Source of the DNA: Paracoccaceae bacterium
GTDB lineage: Bacteria; Pseudomonadota; Alphaproteobacteria; Rhodobacterales; Rhodobacteraceae
Direction of reading: 5' to 3'
NCBI GenBank assembly: GCA_019911965.1
Contig: JAIOJF010000010.1
Span: 1-42,374 of the forward strand
Length of the DNA: 42,374 nucleotides
This document shows positions 3,148 through 34,351 of this stretch, piece by piece (positions within the stretch are counted from its first letter, which is position 1; every line of letters starts with the position of its first letter). Made by a program: the position numbers and the translations under genes. The notes below the pieces were generated by a model. The model searched no databases. It saw nothing but the letters and a program-made list of their open reading frames with translations, and was not told the origin of the DNA.

Positions 3148-4701
3148 TTACCAGACGCCGTTGCCCGGACGCATCCGCGCCTTTGGCAGGATGATATTGA
3201 ACCGGTCGCGCAACTGCGCGTCAACATGGCCCGGGATGTGATCGGGATAGTGGTCCGCCAGCACCTTGCGCACCTTGTCGCGGGCGTTCTCGCGGGCGTC
3301 CCGGCCACCGGCCCTTTCCCATTCACTGATACTTCGGCGATCGGCGATATCGGGATACAGGTAATCCGTTTTCATCCGCGCGAATGTTTGCGGATGGCCA
3401 AGATAATGGCCAGCACCGGTCACGACATCGCGGATGACATCGAAGCTTAGCGCGTCTTCGCTGACTTCCACGCCTTTTACGGTGCGCAGGATCGCACCCA
3501 GCAGGTCGTTGTCCAGAACATAGCTCTCCAGGCTGGTGCCCATCAGCGAGGCCTGCATGCCCGCCGATTCATGGATCATCGACGCACCGGCATGCGCGGC
3601 CAGCGAGATGGTATAGCCCTTCTCGCCGCCCGATTGCATGTCGGGTAATTTGCTGTCCGTCATGCCGGCAGGCACCGAATTGGGCAGATCGTAAAATCCA
3701 CCCATCTGGGCGCAGGCGGCCGACAGCAGCGCCTGTTCGCCTGACCCGCCCGACATGGCACCGGTACGCAGGTCGCTGACAAACGGCCAGGTGGCAAAGA
3801 TGCCCCGGCAATCGGGGTCAATGATGTTGCACAGGATCAGCCCGGCCAGCACCTCGGCGCAGGATTGCGCCACGGCGCCGGCCAGCGCGGCGGGTGCGGT
3901 TGCCCCCGCCTGCCCGGCGGCGACCAGCAGGATCGGCATGCCGGCAAGCACCGCCGCCTCCAGCGCATCGCAGCTTTCGGTGGCGAACCGCATCGGTGGC
4001 ACCACATGGCAGCAAACCGCGGTGCAGAACGGGCGCTTGCGAAAGGCCCCCTCGCCTCCCGCCACCGCGTCCAGCATGGGCATCACGGCATGAACGCTGG
4101 CGCTGTCGGTATAACTGACGGCGATGGATTTGGATGTGCCGGACAGGCAGGCATAGGTGGTGTTGATATCCAGATCGAGGATCGTCCCGGCATCGCGGGT
4201 CACGACCGAGCGGTGATACCAGTGGATATTGTCCAGCCGGTCGACCAGCCGCGCGATATCGTAAAGGTCTGCGACAGTGCTTTCGCGGTATCTGCCGGTT
4301 TCAAAATCCATGATCGTGGGGGCGGCCCCACCGGTGCCGGTATGAACCCGCCCTCCGCCGATCTCGATATCATGCGCCGGGTCAATACCGTGCAGGGTGA
4401 ACTTGCGCCTCGTGCGGGCGATCACGTCTTCGACCAATGCGCGGGGAAAACGCAGGCGGTTACCGGCATCCACCCGGCATCCGGCGGCAATCGCACGCGC
4501 CTGAAGGCTGGGGGTCACCTGGCTCAATCCCAGATCTTCAAGCAACCGCAAAACGAGCGCATGGATGCGTTCCATTTCGGCATATGTCAGCGGCTTGTAA
4601 TTGCCCCCCGGCATCCCCGGGAAAACCGGTGGCAAGGCCCGGGTAATGTCCGCCGCGCTGCGGATGCGACGGCCGGTCCGCCGCGCGGTTGAAACGGGCA
4701 T
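3148..4701 (-). CDS. Trimethylamine methyltransferase (MttB) family protein, non-pyrrolysine
   Basis: A 517-aa member of the MttB superfamily (COG5598). Archaeal MttB moves a methyl group from trimethylamine to a corrinoid protein and contains pyrrolysine. This ORF has no internal TAG, so it belongs to the non-Pyl branch; one characterised member (MtgB) demethylates glycine betaine. The TIM-barrel-type family pattern runs from about residue 30 to the end. No corrinoid protein (MttC-like) or reactivase is encoded nearby; instead the next gene is a THF-linked flavoprotein. A LysR gene lies just upstream on the same strand. Family call is firm; substrate and methyl acceptor are open. Confidence 0.82.
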   Translation of the reverse strand: MPVSTARRTGRRIRSAADITRALPPVFPGMPGGNYKPLTYAEMERIHALVLRLLEDLGLSQVTPSLQARAIAAGCRVDAGNRLRFPRALVEDVIARTRRKFTLHGIDPAHDIEIGGGRVHTGTGGAAPTIMDFETGRYRESTVADLYDIARLVDRLDNIHWYHRSVVTRDAGTILDLDINTTYACLSGTSKSIAVSYTDSASVHAVMPMLDAVAGGEGAFRKRPFCTAVCCHVVPPMRFATESCDALEAAVLAGMPILLVAAGQAGATAPAALAGAVAQSCAEVLAGLILCNIIDPDCRGIFATWPFVSDLRTGAMSGGSGEQALLSAACAQMGGFYDLPNSVPAGMTDSKLPDMQSGGEKGYTISLAAHAGASMIHESAGMQASLMGTSLESYVLDNDLLGAILRTVKGVEVSEDALSFDVIRDVVTGAGHYLGHPQTFARMKTDYLYPDIADRRSISEWERAGGRDARENARDKVRKVLADHYPDHIPGHVDAQLRDRFNIILPKARMRPGNGVW

Positions 4702-27739: not shown

Positions 27740-29524
27740 TCAGAATTTCGACAGCCTGTAATCCATGTCGGTCGCCGGTTCAATCTCTGGCCGCATCCCC
27801 AGCAATGGCGCGGCGCGGCGGATGATCTCGGCGGCGACCGGTACAGCGGTCCAGCCGGCGGTACGGCGCGGTTTGACGCCCGAAGTCTCGGTCGGCTCAT
27901 CCAGCGTCACCACCAGCACATATTTCGGATCATGCGCGGGGAACACCGAGGCAAAGGTAGCGATGGTCTTGTCGTCGTAATAGCCGCCGCCGGGTTTCTG
28001 CTTTTCCGACGTCCCGGTCTTGCCGCCGACATGGTAGCCCTCGACCTCACCCATCGAGGCGGTGCCGCGCACCACCACCTGGCGCAGCATCGCGCCAAGC
28101 GCGTGCGAGGTTTCCACAGAAACGATCCGCGTGCCCGCCTCGGGGGCGTTCTGTGCCTTCAGCAATGTCGGCTGTACCAGCGTGCCACCGTTCAGCAGGC
28201 TTGCGTAACCGGCGGCCAGATGCAATGGGCTGACCGAGATGCCGTGGCCGTAAGATATTGTCATGGTTGACAATTCCGACCATCTTTTCGGCAGAAGCGG
28301 GCGCACGTTCGGGGCCTCGGCCAGTTCCACTGGCAGCGGCAAAAACAGCCCCAGCGAATCCAGAAACGCCTGCTGGCGACCGGTGCCGACCTCGATCGCC
28401 AGACGCGCAGAGCCGAGATTGGAGGATTTGACGATCACGTCCGTCAGGCTGAGCGCATTGCCGTAATCGTGGAAATCGTTGATCGTGTGCTTGCCCCATT
28501 TCAGCGGGCCGCGTGTGTCCACCATCGTTTCGGGGGTGGCCACGCCATGTTCCATCGCCATCGCGGCGGTGAACACCTTGAAGGTCGAGCCAAGCTCGTA
28601 CAGCCCCTGCACGGCATGGTTGAACAACGGGCTGTCCGAGGCATCGCCGGTGGTCAGGGGTGCCGGGCGGTCGTTCGGATCGAAATCCGGCAGCGACACC
28701 ATCGCGATCACCTCGCCGGTTTTCACATCCATCAGGATTGCCGCCGCCGCCTTGGCGCCGAGCAGGCTCATGCCACCGGCCAGCACCCGCCTTGTGGCCG
28801 CCTGTACCGTCAAATCCAGTGACAATTGCAGCGGCCTGCCGCGTTCGGCGGGATCGCGCAGGAAGGCATCGAAGCGGTGTTCGACGCCGGCTACGCCAAT
28901 GATCTCGGCGGAATGCACGCCTTCGCGCCCGTAAGCCGCCCCGCCCAGGATATGCGCCGCCAGTTTGCCATTGGGATAAAGCCGCATCTCGCGCGGGCCG
29001 AACAACAGGCCCGGTTCGCCGATATCATGCACCGCCTGCATCTGTTCGGGCGACAATTTGCGCCTGAGCCAGATGAATTTGCGCCCCGACTGGAAGCTGG
29101 CCAGCAATTCGCGCGCATCCATGTCGGGGAAAATCGCCGCCAGGCCGCGTGCCGCGCTGCTTGCGTCGATCATCTGCGGCGGATGGGCGTAAAGCGAGTT
29201 TGTCACAAGGTTGGTCGCAAGGATCGAACCGTTGCGATCAATGATATCAGCCCGCTGGGTCTGGATGACGTCGCTGAGGTCGGCCGAGGGCGGCTCTACC
29301 GGCTGGCTGGAGGCCAGATTGGCCATCCGGACGCCGACCACCAGAAAGGCTGCTGCGAAGCTGAGGCCCAGCACCACCAGCCTTGTTTCCGCGCGCTTGC
29401 GTTCGCGGTTGCGCATCTGCTCGTGGCGAAGGCGGATATTTTCCGCCTCGATCAGGTCGGGGTCTTCACCGGCAGCGCGGGCCGAGATGATGCGCGCCAG
29501 CGGGCGCAGCGGGGTGCGGATCAT
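27740..29524 (-). CDS. ftsI: Peptidoglycan D,D-transpeptidase FtsI (PBP3)
   Basis: A 594-aa class B PBP of the divisome that crosslinks septal peptidoglycan. A cytoplasmic N-terminus is followed by one helix (about 47-65, LVVLGLSFAAAFLVVGV), a pedestal domain with RADIIDRNGSILATNL, and a transpeptidase with GSTFKVF (SxxK), SSN and KTGTS. An ORF extends further upstream, but the ATG at 29524 overlapping the ftsL stop (4 nt) is the natural start. Confidence 0.95.
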   Translation of the reverse strand: MIRTPLRPLARIISARAAGEDPDLIEAENIRLRHEQMRNRERKRAETRLVVLGLSFAAAFLVVGVRMANLASSQPVEPPSADLSDVIQTQRADIIDRNGSILATNLVTNSLYAHPPQMIDASSAARGLAAIFPDMDARELLASFQSGRKFIWLRRKLSPEQMQAVHDIGEPGLLFGPREMRLYPNGKLAAHILGGAAYGREGVHSAEIIGVAGVEHRFDAFLRDPAERGRPLQLSLDLTVQAATRRVLAGGMSLLGAKAAAAILMDVKTGEVIAMVSLPDFDPNDRPAPLTTGDASDSPLFNHAVQGLYELGSTFKVFTAAMAMEHGVATPETMVDTRGPLKWGKHTINDFHDYGNALSLTDVIVKSSNLGSARLAIEVGTGRQQAFLDSLGLFLPLPVELAEAPNVRPLLPKRWSELSTMTISYGHGISVSPLHLAAGYASLLNGGTLVQPTLLKAQNAPEAGTRIVSVETSHALGAMLRQVVVRGTASMGEVEGYHVGGKTGTSEKQKPGGGYYDDKTIATFASVFPAHDPKYVLVVTLDEPTETSGVKPRRTAGWTAVPVAAEIIRRAAPLLGMRPEIEPATDMDYRLSKF

Positions 29525-29913
29525 GGCTGGCCTCCGATCGGTGCGTCGGCATTTTCCGGCGTTTCGGCGGCCACACCGTCGAACGGCGCGGACAGGTCGA
29601 CCGGGCCCGTCACTTCCTCGACGCGCAATTCGGGGAAGGCGACCTGATCGACATTGCCGAAATGTTCGGGCGCCAGCGGCATCAGTTGCAGCGTATCGAA
29701 GTTCAGATCGGACAATTCGCGCAGGCGTTCGGGGCGGTTCAGATAGGCCCATTCCGCTTTCAGCACGCTTAAGGTCTCGCGTTCGGTGCCGATGTCGCGC
29801 TGCAATTCGCGCACCTGGCGCAGCGCCTCGCGGGTGGCGTTGTTCTCGTTATAGGCCCAGTAGGCCAGGGCAATCGTCGCCAGTGCCGCCAGCAGATACA
29901 GGATGGTGCGCAT
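29521..29913 (-). CDS. ftsL: Cell division protein FtsL
   Basis: A 130-aa bitopic membrane protein: an N-terminal helix (about 3-20, ILYLLAALATIALAYWAY), then a periplasmic coiled coil (TREALRQVRELQRDIGTERE) and a tail with the LRELSDLNFDTLQLMP pattern common in alphaproteobacterial FtsL. FtsL joins FtsB/FtsQ in activating FtsWI. It sits between rsmH and ftsI as usual, with overlaps on both sides. The C-terminal 30 residues are low-complexity and variable. Confidence 0.88.
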   Translation of the reverse strand: MRTILYLLAALATIALAYWAYNENNATREALRQVRELQRDIGTERETLSVLKAEWAYLNRPERLRELSDLNFDTLQLMPLAPEHFGNVDQVAFPELRVEEVTGPVDLSAPFDGVAAETPENADAPIGGQP

Positions 29914-30929
29914 CAGACGGCTCCTTGCCAGTTGAGATCGGGCAGGCCGAGATCGCGGGCATCGAGGCGCCCTGCCGGGGCCTCCAGCCGCCGCGCCAGC
30001 CTGAGCTTGGCTGAGCGGGCGCGGGGATTGGCCTCGAGTTCCTCTTCGTCCGGGCCGATGGCCTTGCGGTTCAGGCGTTCAAATCGCGGCGCTTCGGTCA
30101 CGGTTTCCGGGGCAAAACGATTGCCGCGTGCCACCTCGCCGGAACGGACCTGGATGAAGCGCTTGACGATCCGGTCCTCCAGCGAATGGAAGGTGACAAC
30201 CGCCAGGATGCCGCCAGGCCGCAAGGCCCGTTCGGCGGCCTCCAGCCCGTCCACCAATTGGCGCAACTCGTCGTTCACCGCAATCCGGAGGCCCTGAAAA
30301 CTGCGGGTGGCGGGATGCACGCGCCCGGGCTTGGCCCGCGGCAGGCAGCTTTCGACCAGCGTTGCCAGGGCCCGCGTGGTGGTGATCGGCTGGGTCTGCC
30401 GCGCCTCGACAATGCGCCGCGCGATCCGGCGCGAGGCGCGTTCCTCGCCGTAGTGAAACAGGATATCGGCCAGCACCTTTTCATCCGCGCTGTTGACGAT
30501 ATCGGCGGCGGACATGCCGGTCCGGCTCATCCGCATGTCCAGCGGGCCATCGGCCATGAAGGAAAAGCCGCGTTCGGCCTGGTCGATCTGCATGGACGAT
30601 ACACCGATATCCAGCACCACGCCATCCAGCGGCAGCGCATCATGGTCCGCCGCCAGTTGATCGAGCCGGGCAAATTCACCAGCAACCAGCACCAGCCGTT
30701 CGCCATATTGCGCCGCCCAGGTCTCGGCGCGGGTGAACACATCCGGGTCGCGGTCTACCGCCAGCACACGCGCGGCACCGGCATCCAGCAAGGCCCTGGT
30801 GTAGCCGCCAGCGCCGAAGGTGCCATCCAGCCAGGTGCCTGACACCGGCGCGATGGCGGCCATGATCGGGTGCAGCAGAACGGGGATATGCGGAGGCGCG
30901 TCGGACGCGAGGGCTGCCCTTTTCGCCAT
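29913..30929 (-). CDS. rsmH: 16S rRNA (cytosine(1402)-N(4))-methyltransferase
   Basis: A 338-aa SAM-dependent methyltransferase modifying C1402 in the ribosomal P site. [13 protein letters not shown], the SAM motif [44 protein letters not shown] and [15 protein letters not shown] identify it. A TTG six bases upstream could extend the frame, but the ATG at 30929, two bases after the mraZ stop and preceded by GGGGAT, is preferred. Its stop overlaps the ftsL start by one base. Confidence 0.95.
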
Positions 30930-30931
30930 GA

Positions 30932-31432
30932 TCAATCCCCGGGGCCGAAATCCAGCAGGCTGAGCGGGTCAAAATCCTCGCCGAACTGTTTTGAGAAATT
31001 GTCGAACTTGTCGGCCTGCGCGAAGTAGGCTTCCGGTCTCCAGATCTGGAACGAAGCCCCGGAGGCGACGAAATACGCCTCGTCGGTGATGTCGGCCTTG
31101 CTGCGCATGCGTTCCGACAGGACCAGCCGGCCATTGTCATCCACCTGCATCTGCTGTGCGAGGCCGGTATAGAAATGTTCCAGATATCTGCGCTTGTCGG
31201 TGCCGGGGCGCATCTTCTTGATGCTGTCGATCACCTCGTTCATCGCCGCCACCGAATAGCCTTCAAGGTAGCTGCGCGACTGGTCGCCGAATACGAGGAT
31301 GAGGTTTGGGTTCAGGCCTTCGGTCCAGGCGGGATCGTTTTCCTCCAGCACGCGGCGAAACGCGACCGGGATCGAGACCCTGCCCTTGCCATCCACCTTG
31401 TGCTGGCTTGCGCCACTGAACCAACCGGCCAC
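30932..31432 (-). CDS. mraZ: Transcriptional regulator MraZ
   Basis: A 166-aa protein with two SpoVT/AbrB-like repeats: the first has [16 protein letters not shown], the second [15 protein letters not shown]. MraZ binds GTGGG-type repeats upstream of the dcw operon and represses it. The start is a GTG with GGGGA just upstream. It is the first gene of the cluster here, behind a long structured leader and a promoter carrying GTGG repeats, which suggests autoregulation. Confidence 0.94.
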
Positions 31433-31466
31433 TGTCCCCGCGGCTCCTTGCCCGTTTGCCGGTCCT

Positions 31467-31511
31467 GAAACGAAATTGGCGGATCAAGCTGCTGCCACTG
31501 CTTGATCCGCC
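31467..31511 (-). terminator. Leader hairpin/attenuator before mraZ
   Basis: On the minus strand GGCGGATCAAGC (31511-31500) and GCTTGATCCGCC (31489-31478) pair perfectly over 12 bp around a 10-nt loop, followed by AATTTCGTTTC. The pairing can extend to 23 bp with three mismatches if flanks to 31522 and 31467 join. The T-rich tail is interrupted, so partial termination with read-through into mraZ, 46 nt away, is expected. Confidence 0.7.
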
Positions 31512-31672
31512 GATCTCGTTCCGTCTTCGGACCGGTCCGGCTGCGCTGCCACCTGGGGGGGTAACACGACTTGCGCGCCGGATCTTCTTTTTGATGAGAA
31601 GGGGTGCCTGTATGAAACCTGCTCTTGGGTTTTCCGGGTCTTGTTGCCCGGTGTTGTTCCCGTCCTCATCTG
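31467..31672 (-). ncRNA. UpsM-like sRNA from the mraZ/dcw leader (predicted)
   Basis: The dcw leader runs from a predicted start near 31672 to a strong hairpin and T-rich tail ending near 31467, about 206 nt, upstream of mraZ. In Rhodobacter sphaeroides the abundant sRNA UpsM, about 200 nt as I recall, arises by premature termination in exactly this leader. Position, size, promoter and terminator agree here; sequence homology was not tested. Read-through would give the full dcw mRNA, so the hairpin would set how much transcription reaches mraZ. No ORF in the stretch is convincing. Confidence 0.65.
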
Positions 31673-31678
31673 AAGACA

Positions 31679-31707
31679 TTGATACATTGGCTTCGTGTGG
31701 ATTTCAA
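31679..31707 (-). promoter_or_regulatory. Predicted sigma-70-type promoter of the dcw operon
   Basis: On the minus strand TTGAAA (31707-31702) is followed after exactly 17 bp by TATCAA (31684-31679). The predicted start is near 31672, giving a leader of about 240 nt before the mraZ GTG. Confidence 0.55.
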
Positions 31708-31717
31708 TGGTTTTGAG

Positions 31718-31743
31718 CCCCACTTGATGGTTCTAGATACCAC
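31718..31743 (-). promoter_or_regulatory. Candidate MraZ boxes upstream of the dcw promoter
   Basis: GTGGGG (31723-31718) and GTGGT (31743-31739) on the minus strand start exactly 20 bp apart, two helical turns, just upstream of the predicted -35. MraZ binds short GTGGG-like repeats at 10-bp spacing; the middle repeat is degenerate here (GAACC). The match is suggestive, not proof. Confidence 0.4.
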
Positions 31744-32103
31744 CTGACCCCTGAAGGCGATGGAAACAGTAGCCTCCAGAACGCGAAAATGTCCCGTGAT
31801 GGTGGACAGTGGAGAAATTGCTACTAGATATGGTAGTCTGCATTTTTCTCGCTTTATTACCGCACTGGCGCATCCGTACCTGGCTGGATTGAGAACGCAA
31901 ACAGAACATTCCGCAGCCGGGCCTGTTTTCTGACCGGCAAAGTGATTCGAATCACGGATTTCCCCGCGAATCAAGCCGGTTAAGCGAACTGCCCTGGCCT
32001 GGCTGCCTTGCGGGCCCGCCATTCCGCGATGGACCTTGCATCGGGATTTGTGTAATTCGCGGGCGACAGGGCGGCTGGGGCCGCAATTGGCTTCGGGGAC
32101 CGG
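31744..32103 (+). promoter_or_regulatory. Divergent upstream region of tupB with a 14-bp palindrome
   Basis: This 360-bp stretch has no convincing gene. At 31942-31955 there is a perfect palindrome GTGATTCGAATCAC, about 150 bp before the tupB start; it could be an operator for a regulator of tungstate uptake. I see no ModE/TunR-type consensus. A minus-strand frame ending at 31980 overlaps tupB and has no start support. Confidence 0.35.
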
Positions 32104-32802
32104 ATGGAAACGCTGCAACAGGCCTGGGCATTGGTGATCGGCCTGGATTCCGCGCTGATGCAGATCATCGGCCTGTCGCTCTATGTCAGTCTGAGCGCCA
32201 CCGCCATTGCCGCGCTGATCGGCATTCCGCTGGGCGCGGTGCTGGCGATCTGGGCCTTTCCGATGCGCGGGCTGCTGGTGGTGCTGGCAACCTCGATGAT
32301 GGCGCTGCCGCCGGTTGTGGTGGGGTTGAGCGTCTATCTGTTGTTGTCGCGGGCCGGGCCGCTGGGCAGTTTCGGGCTGTTGTTCACGCCGGGCGCGATG
32401 ATCATCGCCCAGACCATCCTGATCGCCCCGATCATCCTGGCGCTGACCCGCGAGGCGGTGCTGCCGCTGGTGCGCGATTACCGCCAGTTGCTGTTGTCGG
32501 TCGACGCCGGGCCGTGGCTGAAGCTGACCACGCTGATCCGCGATGCGCGGTTCGGGGTGATGACGGCGATCCTGGCCGGGTTTGGCCGCGCCCTGGCCGA
32601 GGTGGGGGCGGTGCTGATCGTTGGTGGCAATATCAACGGCGTGACCCGCGTGATGACCACGACGATCGCGCTGGAAACCAGCAAGGGCAATCTGGAACTG
32701 GCGCTGGCGCTGGGGTTGATCCTGATAACCATCGCCATCACCATCAACGCCGCGATGCATGGCCTTGGCCGGTTTGGCCGCCGGTTCGAGGCCAAGCGAT
32801 GA
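32104..32802 (+). CDS. tupB: Tungstate ABC transporter permease TupB
   Basis: A 232-aa inner-membrane permease with about five hydrophobic segments and a BPD_transp-type cytoplasmic loop around GFGRALAEVGAVLIVGGNI, the EAA-like region that contacts the ATPase. The N-terminal helix region LYVSLSATAIAALIGIPLGA and the TTTIALETSKGNLELALALG segment are characteristic of TupB/ModB-type anion permeases. Its stop overlaps the tupC start (ATGA). The TupA neighbour supports tungstate rather than molybdate or sulfate. Confidence 0.85.
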   Translation: METLQQAWALVIGLDSALMQIIGLSLYVSLSATAIAALIGIPLGAVLAIWAFPMRGLLVVLATSMMALPPVVVGLSVYLLLSRAGPLGSFGLLFTPGAMIIAQTILIAPIILALTREAVLPLVRDYRQLLLSVDAGPWLKLTTLIRDARFGVMTAILAGFGRALAEVGAVLIVGGNINGVTRVMTTTIALETSKGNLELALALGLILITIAITINAAMHGLGRFGRRFEAKR

Positions 32803-33506
32803 GCGCACCTGTCCTGGTCTTCGACAGCGTCAGCATCCATGCCGATGGCAACGCCCTGCTGGGGCCGGTCAGCCTGACGCTGGCAACGCCGGGGATCACC
32901 GTGGTGATGGGGCCGAACGGCGCCGGCAAGAGCCTGTTTCTGGCCGCAGCACATGGCCTGCTCAAGCTGGAAGGCGGGCACATCACCTGGGACGGGCGCG
33001 ACGCCGCCACAAGCCGCGCGGCACGCGGCTTCGTGTTTCAGGCAACGCCGGTACTGCGCCGCTCGGTCGCGGGCAATGTCGCCTTCCCGCTGATCGCACG
33101 CAAGCACGGGCGGGCCGAAATCCGCACCCGTGTCGCCTCCGCCCTGGACGAGGCACGCCTGTCCGCCCTTGCCCGCCAGCCCGCAGCGGCCCTGTCGGGG
33201 GGCGAGTTGAAGCGCCTCGACCTCGCGCGCGCGATGGTGGGCCGGCCCACCAGCCTCCTGCTGGACGAGCCGTCGGCCAATCTGGACCCGGCCTCGACCG
33301 CGGAACTGGAAAAGGCGCTGCACCGGATCGCGGCGCGCGGTGTCAAGGTGCTGGTCTCGACCCACGATGTGGCGCAGGCGCGCCGACTGGCCGACGACAT
33401 CCTGTTCTTCGACGCCGGTCAACTGGCCGAACAGGCCGATGCCGAAACATTCTTTGCCGCACCCGCCAGCACGGCGGCGCAGAAATACCTGCGGGGGGAG
33501 TTATGA
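32799..33506 (+). CDS. tupC: Tungstate ABC transporter ATP-binding protein TupC
   Basis: A 235-aa ABC ATPase: Walker A GPNGAGKS near 38-45, signature LSGGELKRLDLARA, Walker B LLLDEPSANLD and His switch STHD. An open frame continues upstream inside tupB, but the ATG at 32799 overlapping the tupB stop is the natural start. Its own stop overlaps the tupA start by 4 nt, so tupBCA is a coupled operon. No TOBE domain is present, unlike ModC. Confidence 0.88.
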   Translation: MSAPVLVFDSVSIHADGNALLGPVSLTLATPGITVVMGPNGAGKSLFLAAAHGLLKLEGGHITWDGRDAATSRAARGFVFQATPVLRRSVAGNVAFPLIARKHGRAEIRTRVASALDEARLSALARQPAAALSGGELKRLDLARAMVGRPTSLLLDEPSANLDPASTAELEKALHRIAARGVKVLVSTHDVAQARRLADDILFFDAGQLAEQADAETFFAAPASTAAQKYLRGEL

Positions 33507-34351
33507 TCCGGGCACTGGTTTTTCTTTGGCTGGCACTGGTGCCGCAGGTGGTGCAGGCCGAGGAGGTGTTCATCACCGTCGCCTCGACCACCTCGACGCA
33601 GAATTCCGGGCTGTTCGGGGCCATCCTGCCGCGATTCACCGCCGAAACCGGGATATCGGTGCGGGTGGTGGCGGTCGGCACCGGGCAGGCGCTGCGGATT
33701 GCCCGCAATGGCGACGCCGATCTGTTGCTGGTGCATCACCGAGCGTCCGAAGATGAATTTGTCGCCGAAGGCTACGGCATCGAGCGCCGCGACGTGATGT
33801 ATAACGATTTTATCCTGGTCGGCCCTCCGGCTGACCCCGCCGATATCCGCGACGCCGCCAATGCCGCCGAAGCATTGGGCCGGATCGCGCAATCCGGCCA
33901 GCCGTTCATCTCGCGCGGCGATGACAGCGGCACGCATCTGAAGGAACGCGAATTATGGGCTGAGGCCGGCATTGCCCCCGCCGGTTCCTGGTATCTGGAG
34001 GCCGGGGCCGGCATGGGCACCACGCTGAACCTGGCGGTGGCCAAGGATGCCTATGTGCTGACCGATCGCGGCACCTGGATCACGTTTGGCAACAAGGGCG
34101 GGCTGGTGCGCCTGTTCAGCGGCGATCCGGCGATGTTCAACCCTTACGGCGTGGTTCTGCTGAATCCTGAGCGTTTCCCCCACGTCAAGGCTGAAGCCGC
34201 CCGCGCCTTCGCCGACTGGCTGGTATCCGATACCGGGCAGGCCGCGATCAGCGCCTTCCGCATTGACGGTTTTCAGGCCTTCTGTCCCAATGCAGACGCG
34301 GTTTCCGAGACTATTCGTGACCGCGCTGCCTGCCCGGTGGAGACCGACTAG
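33503..34351 (+). CDS. tupA: Tungstate-binding periplasmic protein TupA
   Basis: A 282-aa exported solute-binding protein. The signal peptide ends near VQAEE (MIRALVFLWLALVPQVVQA). The TupA-type ASTTSTQNSGLF anion-binding motif follows immediately, and RGDDSGTHLKERELW is the second conserved ligand segment. TupA binds tungstate, and more weakly molybdate, for formate or aldehyde dehydrogenases. Order B-C-A differs from the more usual A-B-C. The C-terminus contains two Cys that could form a disulfide (CPNADAVSETIRDRAACP). Confidence 0.9.
   Translation: MIRALVFLWLALVPQVVQAEEVFITVASTTSTQNSGLFGAILPRFTAETGISVRVVAVGTGQALRIARNGDADLLLVHHRASEDEFVAEGYGIERRDVMYNDFILVGPPADPADIRDAANAAEALGRIAQSGQPFISRGDDSGTHLKERELWAEAGIAPAGSWYLEAGAGMGTTLNLAVAKDAYVLTDRGTWITFGNKGGLVRLFSGDPAMFNPYGVVLLNPERFPHVKAEAARAFADWLVSDTGQAAISAFRIDGFQAFCPNADAVSETIRDRAACPVETD

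Follow-up and report, generated by a model that had tools for sequence, protein, structure and literature searches.

The closest described system is the UpsM leader of Rhodobacter sphaeroides. UpsM (RSs0682) is an abundant, terminated, Hfq-bound RNA. It arises by termination, with about 1 in 100 transcripts reading through (PMC5089854, in excerpt). UpsM and mraZ have no promoter of their own between them in that species, and mraZ is fed by read-through. Under stress, it is cut by RNase E, leaving a 3′ fragment of ~130 nt; the excerpt of PMC6238624 places the site at 694,720. Its partner StsR (RSs0827), 72 nt long (PMC8307010, in excerpt), is made under stress and in stationary phase. StsR is transcribed from RpoHI/RpoHII promoters and pairs with UpsM and the dcw leader, which brings RNase E cleavage and lowers dcw mRNA in R. 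sphaeroides (PMC8307010, PMC8625941 and PMC11354728, all in excerpt). The excerpt of PMC5089854 describes the leader as exclusive to the family, its R1 domain as hardly conserved, its R2 to R4 domains as conserved, and the predicted starts in other species as lying further downstream. SreA and SreB of Listeria resemble UpsM in that a prematurely terminated 5′ leader gives a trans-acting RNA, but they are SAM riboswitches (both points from the same excerpt), whereas the UpsM leader has no indicated ligand.

The window analyzed here is the whole 42,374-nt stretch, from a Paracoccaceae bacterium. Directly 5′ of its mraZ gene is a dcw leader which, judged from its sequence, is a true UpsM orthologue and thus an already known kind of RNA (Table 1). 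A sequence-only reading had proposed an UpsM-type attenuated leader before the dcw genes, and alignment, hairpin conservation and covariation, and StsR complementarity all agree with it. We are confident in reading it as the dcw operon's UpsM leader, with predicted control by attenuation and by StsR with RNase E.

Table 1. Features of the UpsM leader region and of its partner gene
Feature	Position	Strand	Remarks
mraZ, first dcw gene, GTG start	30932..31432	-	Pfam MraZ E 2.6e-15; NCBIfam MraZ equivalog at cut-off (162 bits)
UpsM orthologue, predicted terminated RNA of ~206 nt	31467..31672	-	both ends predicted; covariance model and alignment
R4 terminator hairpin, 12 bp, loop with TGGCAGC	31478..31511	-	sequence, covariation
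R2 hairpin	31536..31582	-	MFE and model alignment
R2 loop segment AGTCGTGTTA	31562..31571	-	GCGAGCAG in the other 36/37 rows (proposed StsR contact 3)
Putative counterpart of the RNase E cut zone of R. sphaeroides	31584..31604	-	R1 3′ strand and A-rich linker; placed by position
R1 domain	31593..31670	-	31670-31659 and 31604-31593 form the closing helix; contains an inner hairpin and the StsR site; MFE
StsR contact 1, GCAGGTTTCATACAGGCA	31605..31622	-	perfect 18-nt complement of own StsR, no G-U
-10 element TATCAA	31679..31684	-	17 nt past -35; relatives align with TATCCC-like hexamers
-35 element TTGAAA	31702..31707	-	sequence; relatives align with TTGATT/TTGCTT
GTGG pair, 20 bp apart	31720..31743 (31743-31740, 31723-31720)	-	1/37 leaders
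StsR orthologue	G000:C13:21323-21400 (L113:424-501)		in gap between two ORFs; ends predicted

For the comparison with R. sphaeroides, we took genome G084 as this species on the basis of its reaction-centre H protein, which matched at 100% over 260 residues (74% in the next genome). UpsM was placed at 694,636-694,841 in it using the published 268-nt leader and 206-nt RNA. This locus coincides with the place given for the RNase E site (694,720) in the excerpt of PMC6238624. One covariance model matched both RNAs, with 145.1 bits (E 2.3e-38) in R. sphaeroides and 139.1 bits (E 1e-36; 31468-31621) in the window. The alignment suggested in the sequence-only reading gave 135 identities in 201 aligned positions, and the best of 30 shuffles gave 91. 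The two leaders share their place before mraZ, the order R1 to R4, the GTG start of mraZ, the terminator loop TGGCAGC, and the StsR site within R1. They differ in the distance from the predicted start to the GTG (268 nt in R. sphaeroides, 240 nt here), in the R2 loop, which lacks CGAGCAG here, in the StsR site, which is a perfect 18-mer here but has one mismatch in R. sphaeroides (GCAGGCTTC), and in the CCCAT boxes of the promoter, which are degraded here.

The promoter that had been read from the sequence (TTGAAA-17-TATCAA) is present at 31707-31679, and its hexamers align with those of relatives. The 12-bp perfect hairpin with a T-rich tail before mraZ is likewise in the sequence, and its stem covaries in relatives: GGCGGATCAAGC (31511-31500) forms 12 perfect pairs with GCTTGATCCGCC (31489-31478) around the loop AGTGGCAGCA (31499-31490), followed by AATTTCGTTTC, with the GTG of mraZ (31432) lying 45 nt beyond the stem. 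This T tract is weak and partly paired in the predicted fold, which counts against a claim of strong termination. A simple scan reported neither the promoter nor this minus-strand hairpin, because the -10 element lacks the T demanded at position 6 and the loop of 10 exceeds the limit of 8. In a scan of 29000-34000, which also missed the UpsM promoter, the single promoter-like site was on the plus strand.

The predicted fold of 31460-31672 has -96.3 kcal/mol, compared with -61.5 (sd 4.7) in 200 shuffles, none of which was as good (z -7.4). In the minimum free energy structure, R1 with an 11-bp closing stem is followed by ~10 unpaired nucleotides, a long bulged R2 hairpin and the R4 terminator. 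A small R3 appeared in one of two leader folds of different length and varies between folds. The folds and the covariation described below are consistent with a four-domain structure, R1 to R4, with a strong predicted terminator.

A 23-bp extended inverted repeat with three mismatches, recognized by eye around the terminator, had also been read as a possible processing site. The repeat is present, but we rejected the second part of this claim: the repeat is the terminator, and in R. sphaeroides RNase E is published to cut where R1 and R2 meet. As printed, the cut in R. sphaeroides falls 23 nt past the start of CATACAGGC, leaving 122 nt to the predicted end versus the published 130 nt. An offset of ~8 nt between assemblies would reconcile the two values and would shift the cut into the R1 3′ strand. 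In both cases the cut lies outside the terminator, either in the 3′ strand of R1 or in the linker that joins R1 to R2.

The distribution of the leader was then examined in the family Rhodobacteraceae, assigned from 10 named relatives. We found mraZ in 56 of 61 genomes, and leader DNA matched 30 of the 61 (own genome included in both counts). All 30 are among the 37 genomes of the same family; the 24 genomes from other families in the class gave no match. Fifty upstream regions were extracted, from 40 genomes and the 10 named loci. Eleven were left out before the first alignment: 3 were truncated, 3 came from family members but had no R2, and 5 were from outside the family. Another 2 that lacked R2 were removed afterwards, giving 37 rows (alignment A1). 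In larger samples, the UpsM model matched 273 of 295 family genomes (246 of 260 of good quality), while in a class sample of 190 the only matches (E<=0.01) were 3 family members. These counts, from a larger sample, agree with the family exclusivity claimed in the excerpt of PMC5089854. An apparent second UpsM copy in G009:C155 was rejected; the match stops at a contig end and was read as an assembly break.

The hairpin conservation that the sequence-only reading had called for was found in the 37 leaders: the terminator stem is kept and covaries, with 99.3% of cells pairing and both bases altered at 8 of the 12 pairs. When 17 pairs from the terminator and outer R2 were compared with 500 shuffles, no shuffle equalled the real alignment in percentage paired, in doubly changed pairs or in covariation score, and 9 of 500 equalled it in the number of pair types. 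In per-sequence folds, the terminator was seen in 37 of 37 leaders and the R1 closing helix (at least 7 pairs) in 34. Conservation is very high in R2 and in the R4 loop, and TGGCAGC in the terminator loop (31490-31499) is the same in all 37 leaders although the stem varies.

A covarying stem would be expected of any terminator that is kept, so it could also belong to a plain intrinsic terminator or insulator of no regulatory role, with UpsM as a by-product. We consider this very unlikely. The hairpin sits in a divergent gap, between mraZ on the minus strand and a tungstate-type ABC operon on the plus strand, every one of the 37 leaders has TGGCAGC in its loop, and the StsR site persists in leaders that have lost the other elements (see below).

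The strong conservation of R2 and the R4 loop would also suit a riboswitch-like attenuator, suggested in the excerpt of PMC5089854, in which a ligand-driven exchange of R2/R4 pairing sets read-through and the StsR effect is secondary. When we blocked the 3′ arm of the terminator, R2 became the main partner of the 5′ arm in 14 of the 37 rows; in the other 23, it paired elsewhere (15 with R3 or other parts, 5 with R1, 3 with the linker). The family consensus of PMC5089854 shows no R2-R4 interaction in the excerpt, and part of the R2 loop matches the 5′ end of StsR. We therefore rejected the R2/R4 switch as not conserved, the same conclusion as in that excerpt, and judge a riboswitch-like attenuator improbable overall.

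Another possibility is attenuation by a leader peptide, with an ATG-started frame (31263-31679) translated and setting termination. An open frame of 138 amino acids does begin at 31679, and the excerpt of PMC5089854 reports weak translation of a small ORF in R. sphaeroides. According to the same excerpt, that ORF occurs only in the species R. sphaeroides. The frame here continues into mraZ in another phase, and what is conserved is RNA structure and unpaired motifs. We give this reading the least credence of the three alternatives and retain the UpsM leader with predicted StsR/RNase E control.

The partner of UpsM was sought with the complement of GCAGGTTTCATACAGGC, the most conserved unpaired stretch of UpsM, in 37 genomes. 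Of the 23 family genomes in this search, 19 hold an exact 14-mer complement both antisense to UpsM and in at least one second place; in G013, G017 and G020 it was found only away from UpsM, and it was absent from G004 (77% complete). We fetched 31 places. At 22 of them there is a small gene that has a terminator and a promoter-like pair (mostly CTTGG...TATAA), and the remaining 9 appear to match by chance. In the genome studied, the gene has CTTGG...TATAAG upstream and a terminator stem with T8, as would an orphan small RNA. By eye, the flanking ORFs resemble an extracellular solute-binding protein and an HTH/cupin regulator.

The identification of this second-place gene as a putative StsR rests on its length (72 nt in R. 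sphaeroides), its presence in R. sphaeroides, where the StsR model also matches (G084:C4:1443997-1444074), and its complementarity to UpsM. As in R. sphaeroides, it is an orphan small RNA of similar size with its own promoter and terminator. Its 39-nt core is identical to that of the R. sphaeroides locus, whereas its linker and terminator stem differ. All 22 rows of A2 share this core exactly, but they had been chosen by an exact 26-nt part of it; among the loci found by the model, it is unchanged in all 30 best matches and in 22 of 27 loci from genomes chosen for an odd or missing UpsM. With the StsR model, 289 of the 295 family genomes gave a match, among them 258 of the 260 whose quality is good. 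Its strong matches in the class sample of 190 were 3 family members. Weak matches outside the family, which occurred in 8 of the 190 genomes at E 3.7e-4 to 6.8e-3, were taken as chance, as was a second, likewise weak, match in the genome studied (C47:49747, E 2.3e-3).

StsR of this genome contains TGCCTGTATGAAACCTGC, which is perfectly complementary to UpsM 31605-31622. This 18-nt match between the genome's own two RNAs is what the check for StsR complementarity proposed in the sequence-only reading brought out, and it points to a putative contact 1. With StsR of this genome standing in for the 10 named loci and G027, contact 1 has at least 14 contiguous pairs in 32 of 37 rows. For a second contact, between the R1-R2 linker and GUUUCUUG, at least 6 contiguous pairs were found in 26 of 37 rows, and we regard it as weakly supported. 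The third, CUGCUCG of StsR with CGAGCAG of R2, is present in 36 of 37 rows, and the sole exception is the window. All 33 further UpsM loci have CGAGCAG, which leaves the window the sole exception in 65 genomes, although 30 of the 33 are best model matches, and so biased to the consensus, and 5 come from genomes already among the 37. On this comparison of sequences, this genome, alone of 65, has lost the proposed contact 3.

The contacts run in antiparallel, colinear order in the two RNAs. We estimate a chance 7-mer match between the two invariant regions at a probability of ~0.1, and contact 3 is for this reason likely rather than proven. In 23 leaders weak or negative for the UpsM model, contact 3 is kept in 5 when G-U is allowed, 3 of them exact; shuffles lead one to expect 0.60.

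The pairing was also compared with shuffled leaders and by cofolding. Of 43 genomes, all but G062 had no more than 5 shuffled leaders in 100 that paired as well as the real one; in G062, 29 of 100 did so. In G010, G035, G017 and G092, the best StsR duplex lay away from site 1. The net gain on cofolding was -18.6 kcal/mol for the pair studied, and averaged -14.6 over 26 genomes. R1 was lost in 23 of 24 cofolds that have R1 when free and was kept in G035, which has no site-1 pairs. This loss is partly built into the method, because RNAcofold forbids pairing within a closed loop. When site 1 alone was blocked in the ensemble, R1 was not opened: its 3′ strand was unpaired at 0.38 when free and 0.39 when bound (mean of 37). 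Exposure of the RNase E site through site-1 blocking alone was therefore rejected.

For this genome, we infer expression, termination efficiency, cleavage, regulation and docking order as follows. Transcription would start near 31672 from the promoter at 31707-31679, and most polymerases would stop at the hairpin 31511-31478 to give an abundant UpsM of ~206 nt, with a minority reading through into the mraZ-dcw mRNA. StsR, encoded in trans, might dock by its loop (UUGCCUGUAU) on AUACAGGC within R1 and extend to the 18-bp duplex. Relatives may form two more contacts in colinear order, with the R1-R2 linker and with CGAGCAG in the R2 loop through CUGCUCG of StsR. The pairing is predicted to open R1, RNase E would then cut at the R1/R2 boundary, and the cut would lower UpsM and dcw mRNA, and hence cell division. 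TGGCAGC has no exact complement within the StsR core and no assigned partner, so that termination itself may be regulated through this loop.

The order in which these elements are lost was apparent in 26 divergent family leaders, 12 without a match to the UpsM model and 14 with E 3.5e-11 or weaker. At least 9 exact nucleotides of the 19-nt StsR target were kept in 21 of the 26, compared with 6 of 1040 shuffles. G062, G092, G116, G135 and G226 fall short of this length. The remaining model-negative genomes offered no readable leader. Two leaders, G142 and G195, had been positioned by the motif itself, and excluding both leaves 19 of 24; including the leader of G017, which is outside the 26 and has no site by eye, gives 21 of 27. 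GGTTTCATACAGG is present in 7 of the 26. TGGCAGC is missing from the divergent leaders except in G308, where by eye it is at the start of mraZ. The StsR site within R1 thus outlives R2 in divergent relatives, as far as aligned sequences can tell, which is opposite to what the excerpt of PMC5089854 says of R1. Its view of R1 as hardly conserved fits the flanks of R1.

In one case, both partners have changed. StsR of G062 reads GCCTATGTGAAACC and its leader reads GGTTTCGTACTAGGTT (L243, L246); aligned by hand, the two pair over 14 positions with one bulge and one double change from C-G to U-A. The changes are possibly compensatory, in this single case whose duplex score does not stand out against shuffles. 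StsR is also changed in G026 (GCCTGTTTG), where the leader is at a contig end.

The StsR site and the terminator might represent an ancestral, family-wide core of dcw control, with R2 and the invariant loop as a later layer read by an unknown factor. We put this forward tentatively, as less probable than its opposite, because divergent leaders keep the StsR site while having lost R2 and the TGGCAGC loop, because G062 shows paired changes in both RNAs, and because the species of the window shed the R2 contact yet kept the 18-bp contact.

CCCAT-like boxes bind MraZ in other bacteria. With our own pattern, pairs of such boxes, 9-11 bp apart, were found in or near the promoter in 29 of 37 leaders, and in neither the window nor 7 others. 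The GTGG repeats described in the sequence-only reading are in the sequence but not conserved, the window being alone among the 37 leaders, and we rejected them as MraZ boxes. We also rejected an unusual divergence of MraZ here: 12 positions that 9 congeners keep are changed, versus 0-10 per congener against the other 8, which is not striking. Pairing of the C-rich R2 loop with the ribosome site of mraZ was rejected as well: it was on a level with shuffles, with a mean p of 0.58, and p<=0.05 was reached in 1 of 37.

What this analysis adds is the partner gene in this genome, the family-wide co-occurrence of the two RNAs, the ranking of the elements by conservation and, in this genome, a lost contact; no description of these was found in the open-licence papers, a set without the primary StsR paper (NAR 2021). 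The system was published in one species, and here it is seen with its partner in nearly every genus sampled (mostly one genome per genus), so that stress-triggered control of cell division by a small RNA acting on a leader looks like a family-wide rule. The comparative set also yields predictions that can be tested at the level of single bases, concerning the three contacts, the invariant terminator loop and the natural loss of one contact.

Several other features of the window were observed. The divergent operon at 32104-34351 on the plus strand encodes a TupB-like permease (161.5 bits, cut-off 320) and, by eye, an ABC ATPase and a binding protein; by eye, it would serve uptake of tungstate or a related oxyanion. 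An ORF at 31666-32808 on the minus strand, just upstream of the leader, is antisense to the permease gene and probably spurious. The Rfam model PYLIS_3 (pyrrolysine insertion, mttB) matched 3564-3663 on the minus strand (42.1, cut-off 38), within an ORF at 3148-4701 on that strand. This ORF is open over 517 amino acids without a stop and scores 340.9 with the trimethylamine methyltransferase model, below the cut-off of 525. With the frame open and this score below its cut-off, we read the ORF as a non-pyrrolysine relative of MttB, and the PYLIS_3 match probably reflects sequence homology.
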